A DNA stretch of 64,000 nt, from the NCBI RefSeq assembly GCF_000316665.1, contig NC_019678.1, positions 2,108,001 through 2,172,000 of the forward strand. Reading direction: 5' to 3'. The notes below the pieces were generated by a model. The model searched no databases. It had not been told where the DNA came from and was given only the letters and a program-made list of their open reading frames with translations. Made by a program: the position numbers and the translations under genes. This document shows, one piece after another, positions 34,843 to 44,113 of the stretch. Source of the DNA: Rivularia sp. PCC 7116. GTDB lineage: Bacteria > Cyanobacteriota > Cyanobacteriia > Cyanobacteriales > Nostocaceae. Each line of letters opens with the position of its first letter. Within the stretch, counting starts at the first letter, position 1.

Positions 34843-35496
34843 CTAAGTTAAACTATTAATTCGTAAAGGAGGAATTGTTAAAACCATTCCGGGATTTAAT
34901 TTTCGGGGATTAATGAGACGATTTTCTTCAGCGATTATACGCCATAAAGAAGGGTCGTTATATTCTTCAGTGGCAATACTACTTAAAGTTTCTCCTCGTT
35001 TGACAATTCTTACAGGATCATCAATTGGATTCTCAATTTTCGCATTTTTTTGCGGTTCTCTCCACTCTTTAAATGTACAGTTTAAAGTTGCTCTCACGGG
35101 TGTAGCATCTTCTAGAAAATGGGTAAGTCTTTTAGTGACACTTTCTAAAAAACCATCGGGTAATAACACGCTATCTTTACCGGAAATAGTCCCCCAAATT
35201 AACTGACAGCGAGGAGGACGTTTAGAATTTTTTCCAATCCGGGGTTGAGTCAAACTAAAAATTTTGCGGGTATAGTTTTGGACGTTTTCAGGTGGAATTC
35301 CTGTAAGTGTGGTGTCAAAAAATAATTCCAGGCTGAGTCTAGTTAATTCTTTGGAAGTTACCGGATTGTTTTTGTCCATTATCCACCCAGTTTTGCTTAT
35401 TTCCACTTGGTTTGGGTTAAATAAAACTTTGAATTCATCCGCAAAATCTCCGGGATTATTTTTTTCAGCTTTGATAGTTAATTTTTCTAATGTCAT
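34843..35496 (-). CDS. LysM-containing tube-baseplate connector
   Basis: This 217-residue protein has an N-terminal contractile-system domain (about 1-150; FADEFKVLFNPNQVEISKTGWI) and a C-terminal LysM module (about 165-213; VKRGETLSSIATEEYNDPSLWRIIAEENR). In contractile systems this LysM protein joins inner tube and hub (Afp7/gp53-like) rather than binding peptidoglycan. It overlaps the gene upstream by 4 bp. Confidence 0.9.
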   Translation of the reverse strand: MTLEKLTIKAEKNNPGDFADEFKVLFNPNQVEISKTGWIMDKNNPVTSKELTRLSLELFFDTTLTGIPPENVQNYTRKIFSLTQPRIGKNSKRPPRCQLIWGTISGKDSVLLPDGFLESVTKRLTHFLEDATPVRATLNCTFKEWREPQKNAKIENPIDDPVRIVKRGETLSSIATEEYNDPSLWRIIAEENRLINPRKLNPGMVLTIPPLRINSLT

Positions 35497-36806
35497 CGAG
35501 TTTTCCCTCTACGTTCGCTTTCAATTACTAAACGTCGCATTAGTTTGCGCTCAACTTGATTAACTATGGTATCTACATCTATCTTTTTTAAATTGTTGGA
35601 ATTTGATTGATTAGCCAAGGGAGAAACAATAGTTTCTGCTGGTGGTGAAGGTAATGGTAATACTTTAGGAAGTGAAGAAGAATTATTATTCGATAAGTTG
35701 GGTTGAGAATTATTAGTTATTTGCGATGAGGAATAATTTTTTGTTAAAGGTAAAGATTGATTTCTTTCAGGGGTATTAATAGATGGAGTAATAGTGACTA
35801 CGGGAAGATGATGATTCTTTTGAGAATTTGAATAATTTCTATTTAATGATGTTTCTTTTTTTATTGAATTATTTTTATCAGTTGAAGGTTGAGTAGTTAC
35901 TATGGGTAGATTTGTTAAATTAATTTCAGTCCCTAAGTTTTCTTGTTTGCTATAAATAATATTTTCGGAATTATTTTCTAGTTGAGTTTGTTTGGAATTA
36001 GTGAAAGTATTTAAAGGATTAGTAACTGGGAGTTGGGATGAGAATAAATCTGAATTTTGTTGTTTGATTTGAACAATAGGAAGTTGTTGAGAAGCACTTA
36101 TAAAACTTTGTAATAATGGCATCTCTCCGGTTTCTGTTATTTGTTCGGATATTGCTTGGGATGAAACAACCGGAATTTGTGGAGAAGATATAGAAGTTTG
36201 ATTAATTTGATTATTGTGATTTTCTAAACCAAGAGCAGGGGTAATATTTTCTGAGTTTTTGATGTTATCAACTGATTTAATTGTCGAAGATTGAGAATTA
36301 TCTGACTTTCGTTGAATTAAAGGTACAGAATTATTCTCTTTTTTGGTATTCGATTGTAACGGCATTTCTTCGCTTTCTGTTAGTTGTTCAGATATTGCTT
36401 GGGATGAAACAACCGGAATTTGTGAAGAAGAGATAGAAGTTTGGTTAATTTGATTTTCTAAATTAAGAGAAGGGGTAATATTATCAATTGGCTTTTCTTT
36501 TCGTTGAATTACAGGAGATGTTGATGTAAATTTATTTTCTCCGCTTTCTATTCCCGATTGATTGGTTGCTGAAACAGGTTGTGCATAAACAATAGGAACA
36601 TCGTTAGATACACCAGTATTAACATTACCCCAACGTTGTATTTGTTGACCTAGAAGAGGTAAACGATTTAAAAGGCGATCGCAACGATTTATGATACGCT
36701 GACTCATAGATATTTTCATCATCCCCGGTTGATTTAAGGGACGATTCAGCCGATTGAGTAAACCAGTATTTAAGGAATCTTGCCAATTTGAGGAAACATC
36801 TGTCAT
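35493..36806 (-). CDS. Repetitive, probably disordered injection-system protein
   Basis: This 437-residue protein is not recognised as a family. Residues 1-60 are basic and helical, the middle (60-400) is low-complexity Ser/Gln/Asn/Thr/Pro, and the last 28 residues form a charged helix (VDTIVNQVERKLMRRLVIES). A 40-residue block, with TSISSSQIPVVSSQAISEQ, is present twice. Short IQRK motifs at 99-103 and 163-167 resemble those of the DUF4157 protein encoded across the divergent promoter. Its position between tube and LysM genes matches the slot of the much smaller Afp6 (DUF5908). It could be a chaperone, ruler or cargo linker. Confidence 0.5.
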   Translation of the reverse strand: MTDVSSNWQDSLNTGLLNRLNRPLNQPGMMKISMSQRIINRCDRLLNRLPLLGQQIQRWGNVNTGVSNDVPIVYAQPVSATNQSGIESGENKFTSTSPVIQRKEKPIDNITPSLNLENQINQTSISSSQIPVVSSQAISEQLTESEEMPLQSNTKKENNSVPLIQRKSDNSQSSTIKSVDNIKNSENITPALGLENHNNQINQTSISSPQIPVVSSQAISEQITETGEMPLLQSFISASQQLPIVQIKQQNSDLFSSQLPVTNPLNTFTNSKQTQLENNSENIIYSKQENLGTEINLTNLPIVTTQPSTDKNNSIKKETSLNRNYSNSQKNHHLPVVTITPSINTPERNQSLPLTKNYSSSQITNNSQPNLSNNNSSSLPKVLPLPSPPAETIVSPLANQSNSNNLKKIDVDTIVNQVERKLMRRLVIESERRGKTR

Positions 36807-36896
36807 TTTTTTATCGCTTCATTTTATCAATTATTTTTCTAAACCAATTTCATCTTGATTTTTTTCAGGGATATTAAAAGCAATGTTATGTAAAAA

Positions 36897-37388
36897 TCAA
36901 AATCTACCAAATTTAGAAATTCCTTGATGAACCAGTTCAATTTTTTCCACAGCAATTTCATCATTACTAGCATTCAATTGTGGACCGTCCCATTTAACTG
37001 GATATGCATTTTTAAAACTCCACCACATCACGGGAATTTGCTGATTATTTAGTAAAATAACCGTACCATTTAACTGTTGAATTAATCCTTGATTTGTTGC
37101 TTCGTACCAAAGATAAAATAAATCAATATTAATTAATCCTCTATTTAAAACCAAATTCGGATAAGTCGTATGTTTGGGAAATTTATGTACAAAGCCATTT
37201 AATCCCCCCTCTTGATAACTTTCCAACTCAATTTCGCTACTTAAACCGCTAACTTCACTAAAACCACCAATAACAACCCCACCAATTTCAACCAAAAAGT
37301 TATAACCCATAAAGGGATCGTGTCCCAGAAAACTCGCTGTAGAACCAGCCGCTAAAACTGCATTCAGTCCGATAAGTTTAGGATTCAT
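36897..37388 (-). CDS. Inner tube protein 2 (gp19-like tail tube)
   Basis: This 163-residue protein has the tube fold signature: DPFMGYNFLVEIGGVVIGGFSEVSGL and a C-terminal DEIAVEKIELVHQGISKFGRF. It resembles the other tube gene (37969-38409). It corresponds to the initiator-type second tube (Afp5-like) rather than the main tube. Confidence 0.88.
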   Translation of the reverse strand: MNPKLIGLNAVLAAGSTASFLGHDPFMGYNFLVEIGGVVIGGFSEVSGLSSEIELESYQEGGLNGFVHKFPKHTTYPNLVLNRGLINIDLFYLWYEATNQGLIQQLNGTVILLNNQQIPVMWWSFKNAYPVKWDGPQLNASNDEIAVEKIELVHQGISKFGRF

Positions 37389-37405
37389 ACCACCTCCGGT
37401 TAAAT

Positions 37406-37582
37406 TTAGGAATTGTTGTTTTGCTCGTTTAGTCGCTGATTAATCTGCGCTACTTGAGCAACCCACTGCTGACGCTCTTGATGTTCCATTATCATTATCT
37501 GTTCGTAAGACCAATGAAAATGATAAGCAAGATAAGCTACCTCCTCCCTGAGTCTTTCTGGTGGGTAGCAAACTACTCCCCC
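37406..37582 (-). CDS. DUF6760-like small protein, in -1 frame with the upstream gene
   Basis: An open frame of 58 codons ends at TAA 37406-37408 and carries YPPERLREEVAYLAYHFHW and IMEHQERQQWVAQVAQINQR, which I recognise as the small DUF6760 protein found in cyanobacterial injection clusters. No ATG, GTG or TTG occurs in this frame between the preceding in-frame TGA (near 37600) and the conserved part. The upstream chaperone-like gene ends in the other frame at GTG GGG GAG TAG (37573-37584). A -1 shift on the G5 run (37578-37582) would fuse the two proteins. Alternatives are a homopolymer sequencing error or a non-standard start. Confidence 0.65.
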   Translation of the reverse strand, partial: GGVVCYPPERLREEVAYLAYHFHWSYEQIMIMEHQERQQWVAQVAQINQRLNEQNNNS

Positions 37583-37935
37583 ACCGGAATAGTTTCTACC
37601 TCAAATTCACCTTCACAATGGGGACAAGCTACCCGCAGACGGCTATGACCATTTTGGTTAATTCTTTGATAAAAATCCTGCAAATAAACCAAATCTCCTG
37701 AAAATAAACCCTCAATTATTTTGGTATTAATTTGGTCTAAAGTTCCCAATTTAGTAATCACTCTTGCTAACAGAATAATCACTAAATAACCAGGATTTCT
37801 CTGCACTCTTGGGTCTTTAAGTGGGGTAATTTCATCATAAGCAGTAGAAAGTCTCATAATACCTTCTTGATGACTGTTACCTTCCGAATCAAGATACCCT
37901 TGAGGCAATATAAAAGGAAATTCAGTTTGCTGCAT
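37573..37935 (-). CDS. Phage tail assembly chaperone-like protein
   Basis: This 120-residue protein begins FPFILPQGYLDSEGNSHQEG, has a helical core (DPRVQRNPGYLVIILLARVITKL and LFSGDLVYLQDFYQRIN), and ends with a Cys-x-x-Cys segment (CPHCEGEFEVE). It lies between the two tube genes, the slot of tail-assembly chaperones in phages, and resembles the small helical chaperone/gp41-type families. The CPHC pair might bind metal with partners. Its stop sits on a G-run that could allow a -1 frameshift into the DUF6760-like frame (see findings). Confidence 0.6.
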   Translation of the reverse strand: MQQTEFPFILPQGYLDSEGNSHQEGIMRLSTAYDEITPLKDPRVQRNPGYLVIILLARVITKLGTLDQINTKIIEGLFSGDLVYLQDFYQRINQNGHSRLRVACPHCEGEFEVETIPVGE

Positions 37936-37968
37936 GATTTTACTTCAAAAAAACTAATCAAAAAAATA

Positions 37969-38409
37969 CTAACCAACAGTAATACCTTCGTGAACTAATT
38001 CCAAAGTTTCTATGGCAATTTCATCAGAAGTACCATTCAAATCCGGAGCATTCCAAGTAGTTGGCCAACAATTTTCTAAATTCCAGCGAAGCTTTTCTTC
38101 TCCCCTATCATCAGCCAAAATAATTGAAAGATTACGTCTATCTGTATCCCCACTTTGTAATTTTTTGTGCCATTCCCAAAGTTCTTGATTATCAGTAATT
38201 CCCCGTTTTAAGGTGATATTTCCGAAAGAATTTAATGCAGGAATTTGACGCTGATTTAATGCTCTATCGGTACCTTCTCTATAGGTTGTTGCATTGCGAG
38301 TAGCTGTTAAGCCGCTGCATTCACGAAAACCAGCATGAACGATACCATCCCATTCAACCCAAAAATTATAACCAAAGTAGGGGTCATGGGGGTTAGAAAT
38401 TGTCGGCAT
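37969..38409 (-). CDS. Inner tube protein 1 (gp19-like, main tube)
   Basis: This 146-residue protein has the standard tail-tube features: DPYFGYNFWVEWDGIVHAGFRECSGLTA, GNITLKRGITDNQELWEWH, and DEIAIETLELVHEGI. It is probably the main tube subunit. It lies directly downstream of the sheath gene and a heptamer repeat. Confidence 0.9.
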   Translation of the reverse strand: MPTISNPHDPYFGYNFWVEWDGIVHAGFRECSGLTATRNATTYREGTDRALNQRQIPALNSFGNITLKRGITDNQELWEWHKKLQSGDTDRRNLSIILADDRGEEKLRWNLENCWPTTWNAPDLNGTSDEIAIETLELVHEGITVG

Positions 38410-38430
38410 AATCAGATTATCTCCTTAAAT

Positions 38431-38515
38431 TGGTAATAGGTAATAGGTAATTGGTAATAGGTAATTGGTAATTGGTAATGGGTAATTGGTAATTGGTAAT
38501 TGGTAATTGGTAATA
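38431..38515. repeat. Heptamer tandem repeat (TTGGTAA)
   Basis: About eleven copies of TTGGTAA and its variants TAGGTAA and TGGGTAA lie in the gap between the tube and sheath genes. The period is seven bases throughout. Confidence 0.85.
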
Positions 38516-42775: not shown

Positions 42776-44113
42776 ATGTACCGTCAAGAAATATCCCAGA
42801 AAACTTCACCTCCGATTAATTCACACTCAGAAAGTAAAGATATTAATCCCAGTCGTAATTATGGTTCCTTATCTTCCGTGGTACAAAGAGCGCAACAAGA
42901 TGTAAATAGCATCAATGCGGATGAAAAACAGCAATTAGAAAGTGCTATTGGGACGAAAGCAACAGGGGAAGTGTTGACGGGTAAGCAGTGGGTACCTGAA
43001 TTTAAGGGAATTTCCGGTCAGCTTTGGGGAGATGCAGCGATACAGATGAAGGGGAAAGATAATAATGTATCTGAGGTGGAGCTAGAAAATAAAACTGGCT
43101 TACCAGATAACTTGAAAGCAGGAATTGAAAATATCTCTGGGATAGCGATGGATGATGTGAAGGTTCACTACAATTCCTCTGAGCCTAGTAAATTCCAGGC
43201 TTTGGCATATACACAAGGAACTGATATTCACGTTGGACGGGGACAGGAACGGCATTTACCCCATGAAGCATGGCATGTGGTGCAGCAAAAGCAAGGAAGG
43301 GTAAAGCCGACTTTACAGATGAAGGGAGCCGCGATTAACAATGATTCCTCCTTGGAAAGAGAAGCTGATGTAATGGGTGCTAAAGCATTACAATCGAGCC
43401 TTCCAACCACCCAACTGCAAAAACACTATGGTTCAGCTTCCGTACTACAGCGCCAAGAAACCAGCTTTCCAGAAGATTCTGAAGAAAAACTCAAGGAAAT
43501 GGGAGTATTACAAAGGAAAGAGCAATCGGGAGCAATTCAGTTCAGAGGTGGGCCTACTGTTGGAATATTGAAGATTAAAAGTAGTGATATTGGCTCTTCC
43601 CTGTTAGCCGGACATGCCTGGTTGTCCTATACCCCTACAGGAGGAGGAGAAGTGACTCATGGAACTTGGGGAAACACAGATCACATCGGTTATAATCGTA
43701 ACTTTGAATGTGGAAGAAACGCTAGAGCCGAAAGAGCCACTGATGTCGATAATACTGACTTAGGTAATCTAAATAACTTTATTGCAGCTAATGATAAATG
43801 GACATACCTCAATAATTGTTCTTCTTTTGCAGCGCGGGGATGGAGAGCAGTTACAAAGGAAAGGCTTGCGTACAAATCTTTAGGATTTATTCCGAATCCC
43901 AGTGCATTGGGTGTAGGTATAGTAGCAGCAAACGGCGGCACAACCGGGGTGCTTCCCGCGAATCGAGGAAGTAGCGCCAACAGTGCTAGTAGCACATCTA
44001 GCAGCAGTGCCGGTTTTTCCAGTAACAGTGTAAACAGTGCCCTCGGTAGCGGTCTCGTAGGTAGCAGCGTAGGTAGCAGCGTAAGTAAGAGTTCTGGAAG
44101 TTCAAGTATATAA
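42776..44113 (+). CDS. DUF4157 (eCIS core) protein with a putative permuted papain-like effector domain
   Basis: This 445-residue protein has a variable N-terminus, then a DUF4157 domain (about 120-205) with a HEAWH zinc-peptidase-type motif at 163-167, the hallmark of cargo proteins of extracellular contractile systems. Short VVQR/VLQR motifs lie around residues 35, 222 and 244. The C-terminal part (about 260-400) has a His in GHAWLSY (His280), a second His in NTDHIGY, and a Cys in NNCSSFAARGW (Cys348). His before Cys fits circularly permuted NlpC/P60 or LRAT-like hydrolases; the family call is inferred. A Ser/Gly-rich tail (about 400-445) follows. It is divergent from the structural genes and upstream of a small gene and the ATPase. 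Confidence 0.7.
   Translation: MYRQEISQKTSPPINSHSESKDINPSRNYGSLSSVVQRAQQDVNSINADEKQQLESAIGTKATGEVLTGKQWVPEFKGISGQLWGDAAIQMKGKDNNVSEVELENKTGLPDNLKAGIENISGIAMDDVKVHYNSSEPSKFQALAYTQGTDIHVGRGQERHLPHEAWHVVQQKQGRVKPTLQMKGAAINNDSSLEREADVMGAKALQSSLPTTQLQKHYGSASVLQRQETSFPEDSEEKLKEMGVLQRKEQSGAIQFRGGPTVGILKIKSSDIGSSLLAGHAWLSYTPTGGGEVTHGTWGNTDHIGYNRNFECGRNARAERATDVDNTDLGNLNNFIAANDKWTYLNNCSSFAARGWRAVTKERLAYKSLGFIPNPSALGVGIVAANGGTTGVLPANRGSSANSASSTSSSSAGFSSNSVNSALGSGLVGSSVGSSVSKSSGSSSI

Follow-up and report, generated by a model that had tools for sequence, protein, structure and literature searches.

A conserved, very probable hairpin-assisted -1 frameshift site between a tail-assembly-chaperone-like gene and DUF6760 in bacterial contractile injection systems

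In phage P2, a tail tube gene is followed by the chaperone gene E and its -1 extension E', and the P2 record, which annotates the -1 shift, carries the slippery heptamer T_TTT_TTG. The same order of tube gene, chaperone and -1 extension was found in a stretch of 64,000 nucleotides of the cyanobacterium Rivularia sp. PCC 7116 (contig NC_019678.1, positions 2,108,001 to 2,172,000; the whole stretch is called the window), in which a tail-assembly-chaperone-like gene of a contractile injection system (CIS) overlaps a DUF6760 frame. The two differ in that the main heptamer here is G_GGG_GAR, the P2 chaperone is not matched by profile, and the gene after the extension is a second tube gene here but the tape measure gene in P2. 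The lambda G/GT and HK97-type pairs are also phage systems, to which no sequence match was demonstrated, whereas the present junction belongs to a bacterial CIS. Bacterial -1 signals of the dnaX/IS3 type consist of a Shine-Dalgarno-like stretch, a heptamer, a short spacer and a stem-loop; the layout of elements is the same here, although the genes are unrelated and the zero-frame stop here usually lies within the spacer. A like heptamer is known from actinophage chaperone genes: the PRFect paper gives GGGGGAA for each of the thousand 'fivetwo' motifs of the SEA-PHAGES data, with G:U re-pairing on GGA (PMC10885494); those sites lie in phage genes, and a stem is not mentioned in the accessible passages of that paper. 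The comparison of loci described below indicates that the junction is very likely a conserved, hairpin-assisted -1 frameshift site (probability about 0.9); by analogy, the upstream protein is likely to act as a chaperone when the CIS is assembled.

All features of the junction are on the minus strand of the window, which had been left unstated in an earlier note on this DNA. They are as follows.

37573 to 37935, minus strand: zero-frame gene for the short form, a tail-assembly-chaperone-like protein of 120 amino acids (open reading frame, ORF; PHROG 508, matched by its relatives; fold)
37406 to 37600, minus strand: -1 frame, open from stop to stop over 64 codons, with the DUF6760 extension coded at 37582-37409
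37576 to 37582, minus strand: slippery heptamer G GGG GAG, read in the zero frame as GGG GAG; 249 of 254 loci keep it or have another heptamer instead
37573 to 37575, minus strand: zero-frame stop TAG, between heptamer and stem and abutting the heptamer
37563 to 37569, minus strand: 5' arm of the stem-loop, GCUACCC, downstream of the heptamer
37536 to 37543, minus strand: 3' arm of the stem-loop, GAGGUAGC, with one bulged A
37598 to 37602, minus strand: Shine-Dalgarno-like GAGGT upstream of the heptamer, a likely stimulator

The 120-amino-acid ORF (37935-37573) ends with CCG GTG GGG GAG TAG, and the five-C run of the plus strand at 37578-37582 is the G5 of the minus strand. Counted from 37582, the -1 frame (37600-37406) comprises 58 codons; no ATG, GTG or TTG precedes its conserved part, and its first ATG codons are downstream of the HFHW motif. 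The extension matched PF20546 (DUF6760) with 55.7 bits against a cut-off of 27. The earlier note had described a 120-residue gene between two tube genes, which are gp19-like, a start-less DUF6760-like frame and the G5 run, and all three were confirmed.

Isolates, metagenome bins and plasmids supplied 263 distinct loci, and in 254 of them a chaperone frame stands in this relation to DUF6760 in the -1 frame. This recurrence refutes the explanation that a sequencing or assembly error has split one plain gene, even though a single base would unite the frames in any one genome. The main count started from 277 loci, of which 13 duplicates and L112, at a contig end, were dropped to give the 263; loci without a chaperone frame of 85 codons (L062, L067, L080, L087, L092, L149, L117, L274 and L277) were then dropped to give the 254. 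The heptamer is visible in the first six of these, although the upstream frame is broken or short. L117 reached 25.9 bits, below the Pfam cut-off, and lies beside tube and sheath matches with its DUF6760-like stretch within a long open frame. The main count does not take in L219 (P2), L220, which repeats the Haloferax locus, or L280-L287.

PF20546 is present in 106 of 388 genomes and 52 of 160 genera of the cyanobacterial class; all 117 places listed there were taken as loci and their junctions read, L028 being the window again. The other sources were plasmid records (17 of 35 used in the main count, one more later), genome-contig relatives (the best 80 of 549), viral contigs (three matches) and four phylum-wide searches, in which 9/348, 12/198, 16/201 and 22/199 genomes gave a match, the centre genome being counted in each. 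From the phage collection, seven of 253 records were used, plus P2. Phyla of the named records were assigned from record titles: the heptamer was present in 91 of these 97 records, spanning ten bacterial phyla, and the remainder were four duplicates, L149 with its broken chaperone frame, and the archaeon Haloferax without the heptamer. A tblastn search with the window sequence gave no match in 50,697 phage records. Three viral-collection contigs carry the junction (L216-L218); there, L217 equals L216 and L218 equals the cyanobacterial L026, and the viral collection may have taken in CIS clusters of bacteria with these contigs.

An in-frame slippery heptamer inside the overlap was detected in 249 of the 254 loci, whereas the same set of heptamers occurred at 435 of 311,417 codons (0.14%) in other ORFs of these loci. 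The set had been widened after variants were seen, and the control was run with the widened set; GGGGG-type heptamers alone account for 221 of the 254. A similar rule recovered a heptamer in all eight positive controls (P2, six other phages and a phage-like Zymomonas plasmid). The 249 heptamers are of G type (GGGGGAG 87, GGGGGAA 86, GGGGGGG 31, GGGGGGA 16, GGGGGGC 1), T type (TTTTTTG 10, TTTTTTA 6, TTTTTTT 2, TTTTTTC 2) and others (GGAAAAG 3, GGGAAAG 2, AAATTTT 2, GGGGAAG 1). The tally includes as T type L273, L275 and L276, in which the domain follows the heptamer only after 54-66 nt, and L238 through GGGGGGC despite an ATG in the overlap; it is 245/250 when these are left out. Two candidate heptamers each were seen in L212 and L228. 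The distance from heptamer start to stop in G-type loci was 10 nt (137 loci), 7 (59), 22 (13), 43 (8), 31 (3) or 13 (1). The earlier note had proposed aligning the junction in cyanobacterial injection-system clusters; the alignment showed that the G run and the overlap are conserved there and also in other phyla. Positions 0 to 5 (GGGGGA) were each common to 109-115 of the 117 cyanobacterial rows, a number that takes in L117, some near-duplicates and both entries of the window.

Loss of the G run coincides with gain of another slippery heptamer (G_GAA_AAG, G_GGA_AAG, T_TTT_TTR or A_AAT_TTT). Cyanobacterial variants read TCG GGA AAG in L083, TCG GAA AAG in L072, L077 and L089, and TCG GGG AAG in L113; the first four loci are related and may represent one event. 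Among the named Bacillota (n=13), G5 is kept in one and lost in 12, and 11 loci of Paenibacillus and Cohnella carry T_TTT_TTG, the heptamer of P2, or T_TTT_TTA within the overlap, 18 nt upstream of the usual site. These replacements bear on the explanation that GGGGGAR reflects only amino acids required in both frames (Gly-Glu and Gly-Gly), with no selection for slippage. The codons GGN GAR and GGN GGN would indeed fix GGGGGAR nearly completely; however, GGAAAAG, GGGAAAG and GGGGAAG alter both proteins while keeping the -1 re-pairing, and T- and A-type replacements occur elsewhere, so that coding need alone is disfavoured and in our judgement very improbable. Slippage of RNA polymerase at a homopolymer would join the frames into the same fusion, and runs of G or T do exist at these sites. 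A five-G run is short for transcriptional slippage. GGAAAAG and GGGAAAG are not homopolymers, and the stem and the frame-locked heptamer point to the ribosome, which leaves this explanation equally improbable.

In the G-type loci, a stem-loop starts about 5 nt past the heptamer. Positions +9 to +18 pair with +41 to +50 and +19 to +22 with +36 to +39, A40 being bulged, and six core pairs are formed in 96-100% of the 103 cyanobacterial G-type loci, where pair 12-47 appears in all four Watson-Crick forms (GC 62, AT 8, CG 7, TA 3). Val at +42, present in 92% of 84 non-redundant cyanobacterial loci, is always encoded by GTA (expected 34%), and Tyr at +15 by TAC in 97 of the 103 loci versus 81 of the domain's 187 other Tyr codons; in T-type loci, Tyr codons at the same site are TAT in 12 of 14. 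A compensatory change from TAC/GTA to TAT/ATA was found in L045, L047, L063, L161 and L271, and in Treponema the stem is preserved although its bases (GCCGCC/GGCGGC) and the amino acid are different. Synonymous constraint was located at +12 to +18 and +39 to +45, which a need for amino acids in both frames leaves unexplained, together with the lack of a start in the second frame. Synonymous re-draws of the 84 loci gave a median z of -3.47, with 76 below -2, whereas three control windows had medians of -0.18, 0.11 and 0.21 (5, 4 and 2 of 84 below -2).

Covariation was counted in 85 sequences not selected for the stem. Paired cells made up 83.9% versus 30-51% when the arms were slid, and cells with both sides changed numbered 52 versus 26.9, a value reached in 0 of 500 shuffles; two of the five measures were not above the shuffles (changed pairs 6 vs 6.4; further pair types 20 vs 20.1). 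In 74 other sequences, selected for the core stem, all five measures exceeded all 500 shuffles. Among the other G-type loci (n=118), 82 have the stem in the same register, 28 have another perfect stem of at least 6 bp and 8 have neither. A 6-bp stem alone is little informative, being present in 48 of 118 controls; 19 of the 28 alternative stems are 10-15 bp long, mainly in Actinomycetota and Chloroflexota. Stems of at least 8 bp were found in 134 of 229 G- and A-type loci versus 65 of 687 control windows, and stems of at least 10 bp in 45 versus 6. The T-type loci, in which the heptamer is placed elsewhere, are without the G-type stem, and a stem at the right distance was not enriched in them (at least 8 bp in 3/20 vs 7/60 controls). 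Taken over the G-type loci, the comparison argues for a covarying stem a few nucleotides past the heptamer, as in bacterial -1 signals stimulated by a stem-loop.

The cyanobacterial loci, the window's sequence among them, were used to build a covariance model, which matched the window at 37526-37585 with 60.5 bits. Across 291 genomes of the class the model gave 93 hits, in 89 of the genomes, and each hit was no more than 250 nt from a DUF6760 match; because the model covers sequence that is also part of the domain, this co-location shows only that no other copies exceed the threshold. A search of 36800-38500 against Rfam gave no match at E up to 1. RNAalifold with default settings did not return the covarying stem and proposed a GGGGG/CCCCU pairing (-6.1 kcal/mol), which was set aside by judgement because the G run would sit inside the ribosome and because the GGAAAAG variants break the pairing and keep TACCC.

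Upstream of the heptamer, a Shine-Dalgarno-like match of at least 4 bases was found 20 to 11 nt before it in 56% of the 103 cyanobacterial and 58% of the 118 other G-type loci, whereas other upstream windows gave 0-23% and 6-43%, respectively. As the signal is partly explained by a common Val-Glu at the site, the stretch is regarded as no more than a likely stimulator.

Separate production of DUF6760, by termination and reinitiation where the stop overlaps, with either a usual or a non-standard start codon, was weighed against the distribution of start codons. Between the opening of the DUF6760 frame, followed back for 75 nt at most, and +15, 135 of the 249 heptamer loci, window included, have no ATG, GTG or TTG; between -30 and +15, 189 have none, which leaves a possible start near the site in 60. 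The start-less frame claimed in the earlier note is thus mostly conserved, with exceptions that have an ordinary start. In the Streptomyces heptamer loci a GTG stands at +9 and was chosen as the start by annotators. In five divergent loci without the heptamer, L119 (Haloferax) and the actinomycete L237, L239, L241 and L242, the chaperone stop is overlapped by an ATG or GTG, and these loci appear to have adopted a separate-protein solution, and the planctomycete L274 and L277 carry chaperone and DUF6760 in one frame. Both sets weigh against a universal frameshift; they are the kinds of case, a normal start or a single plain gene, that had been named as refuting, and they occur as five and two exceptions, none in the window's class. 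A T run (TTC TTT TTT) is seen at the joint of the natural in-frame fusion in L274 and L277. Reinitiation fits the five loci, but it leaves the heptamer, its replacements and the stem unexplained and finds no usual start in the 135 loci; as a general explanation it is improbable, if less so than the others. The programmed -1 frameshift proposed earlier is instead supported by the conserved heptamer, its replacements and the covarying downstream stem-loop.

The upstream protein is similar to tail assembly chaperones of phages. Its relatives match PHROG 508, the window chaperone itself reaching E 0.014, and its predicted fold gave a modest match to the HK97 chaperone and YqbN. Against a library of viral models, Mu FS-gp41 (E 0.015) and T4-type hub assembly proteins (gp26-like, E down to 5e-6) were matched, so that the likeness to Mu gp41/FS-gp41 and to gp26-like proteins is one of fold; T4 itself may use a mechanism other than frameshifting, to judge from a paper's title. 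Profile comparison with P2 gpE gave 0.4%, no match, and the best Foldseek hit of the chaperone in the PDB had E 0.63. A CPHC motif lies close to the chaperone C-terminus, as in most relatives, with weak zinc-ribbon matches.

DUF6760 is related to the P2 E' extension by profile comparison (94.5% over 46 columns, E 7.6e-8 as a single comparison); the window's own frame matched the P2 GpE family weakly (E 0.037). Its model consists of three helices. Foldseek against viral models gave a best E of 0.13, and the DUF6760 profile had no match at E up to 1 among CIS chains in the PDB. The CIS plug protein (Afp6/Alg6) was considered as a possible relative of DUF6760; Alg6 is described, in the accessible part of its report, as one strand and one helix (PMC8894135).

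The surrounding cluster of the window is a CIS. Its domains include Pvc16_N (of the Pvc16-type terminator), AAA ATPase, eCIS core, gp25, baseplate J and tail P2 I; the sheath and the gp19-like tube have two genes each, and a CIS_tube/LysM protein is encoded as well. The whole gene set was examined in the window and a few annotated relatives. The junction is flanked by the two tube genes.

37969 to 38409, minus strand: upstream gene, inner tube protein, gp19-like
36897 to 37388, minus strand: downstream gene, second tube protein, Cis5-like

The window tube protein resembles the solved AlgoCIS tube and Anabaena All3324 of the thylakoid-anchored system to about the same degree, so the class "extracellular" is only putative here. 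A tube or sheath match was present in the fetched flank of 219 of the 249 heptamer loci and of 0 of 8 phage-type records; the flanks of the other 30 had none, and the CIS nature is therefore not proved for every locus. At L287, on a Pseudanabaena plasmid, the chaperone/DUF6760 pair has an AAA ATPase gene and two DUF4157 genes as neighbours; within 9 kb, neither tube nor sheath is annotated, and related cyanobacterial loci are likewise without such a match in the flank; the CIS cluster may be split at loci of this type.

Between the second tube gene and the CIS_tube/LysM gene, a 437-aa protein rich in Ser, Asn and Pro and without a Pfam match is encoded at 35493-36806 (minus strand), and long unnamed proteins lie near the corresponding position in relatives. 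By its position only, it is a candidate tape measure. The gene at 42776-44113 (plus strand) has an eCIS core domain (PF13699) followed by an unmatched C-terminal part and is a possible CIS cargo. Near-identical short direct repeats of the type GGTAATTGGTAAT run between the tube and sheath genes at 38430-38500, as noted by eye.

In summary, we infer that the shift occurs with some efficiency and that it serves assembly. Most ribosomes would terminate at the TAG and yield the short form, whereas some, paused at G_GGG_GAG by the hairpin and perhaps by the Shine-Dalgarno-like stretch, would slip back one base and translate DUF6760 into a 176-aa fusion. On the model of lambda gpG/gpGT and P2 E/E+E', a tape-measure-like protein would be bound by the N-terminal part that both forms have in common, DUF6760 would recruit tube subunits, and the ratio of short to long form would matter for assembly.

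The mechanism is already known from phages; what seems new is to find it, together with a covarying stem, in injection systems of different phyla. No title or abstract on a -1 frameshift in injection systems was found in the searched literature on CIS, tailocins and DUF6760, a search that excluded subscription papers and preprints; in the CIS papers and reviews searched by word, 'frameshift' occurred only within one reference entry, a further eCIS paper (PMC8528098) contains the word once, and a literature search for DUF6760 gave no paper. More tentatively, and with more doubt than confidence, hairpin-assisted -1 frameshifting might be the ancestral and near-universal route to the chaperone pair in a large branch of CIS, in which DUF6760 recruits the tube, the tape measure is hidden, perhaps as the variable downstream protein, and the slip rate helps to set the number and length of machines. 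This would be relevant to length setting in CIS without a recognised typical tape measure, such as that of Streptomyces, for which the accessible part of the report recognises none (PMC10066040).

The finding gives a likely role to DUF6760, an unnamed domain found in many phyla, and explains why the extension is omitted from annotations or given a doubtful start. Rebuilding such a CIS from annotated genes only may omit a needed product. The signal itself is compact, consisting of heptamer, spacer and stem, and has natural replacements. Its distribution suggests that a hallmark of phage-tail assembly was apparently retained after tails became injection machines.
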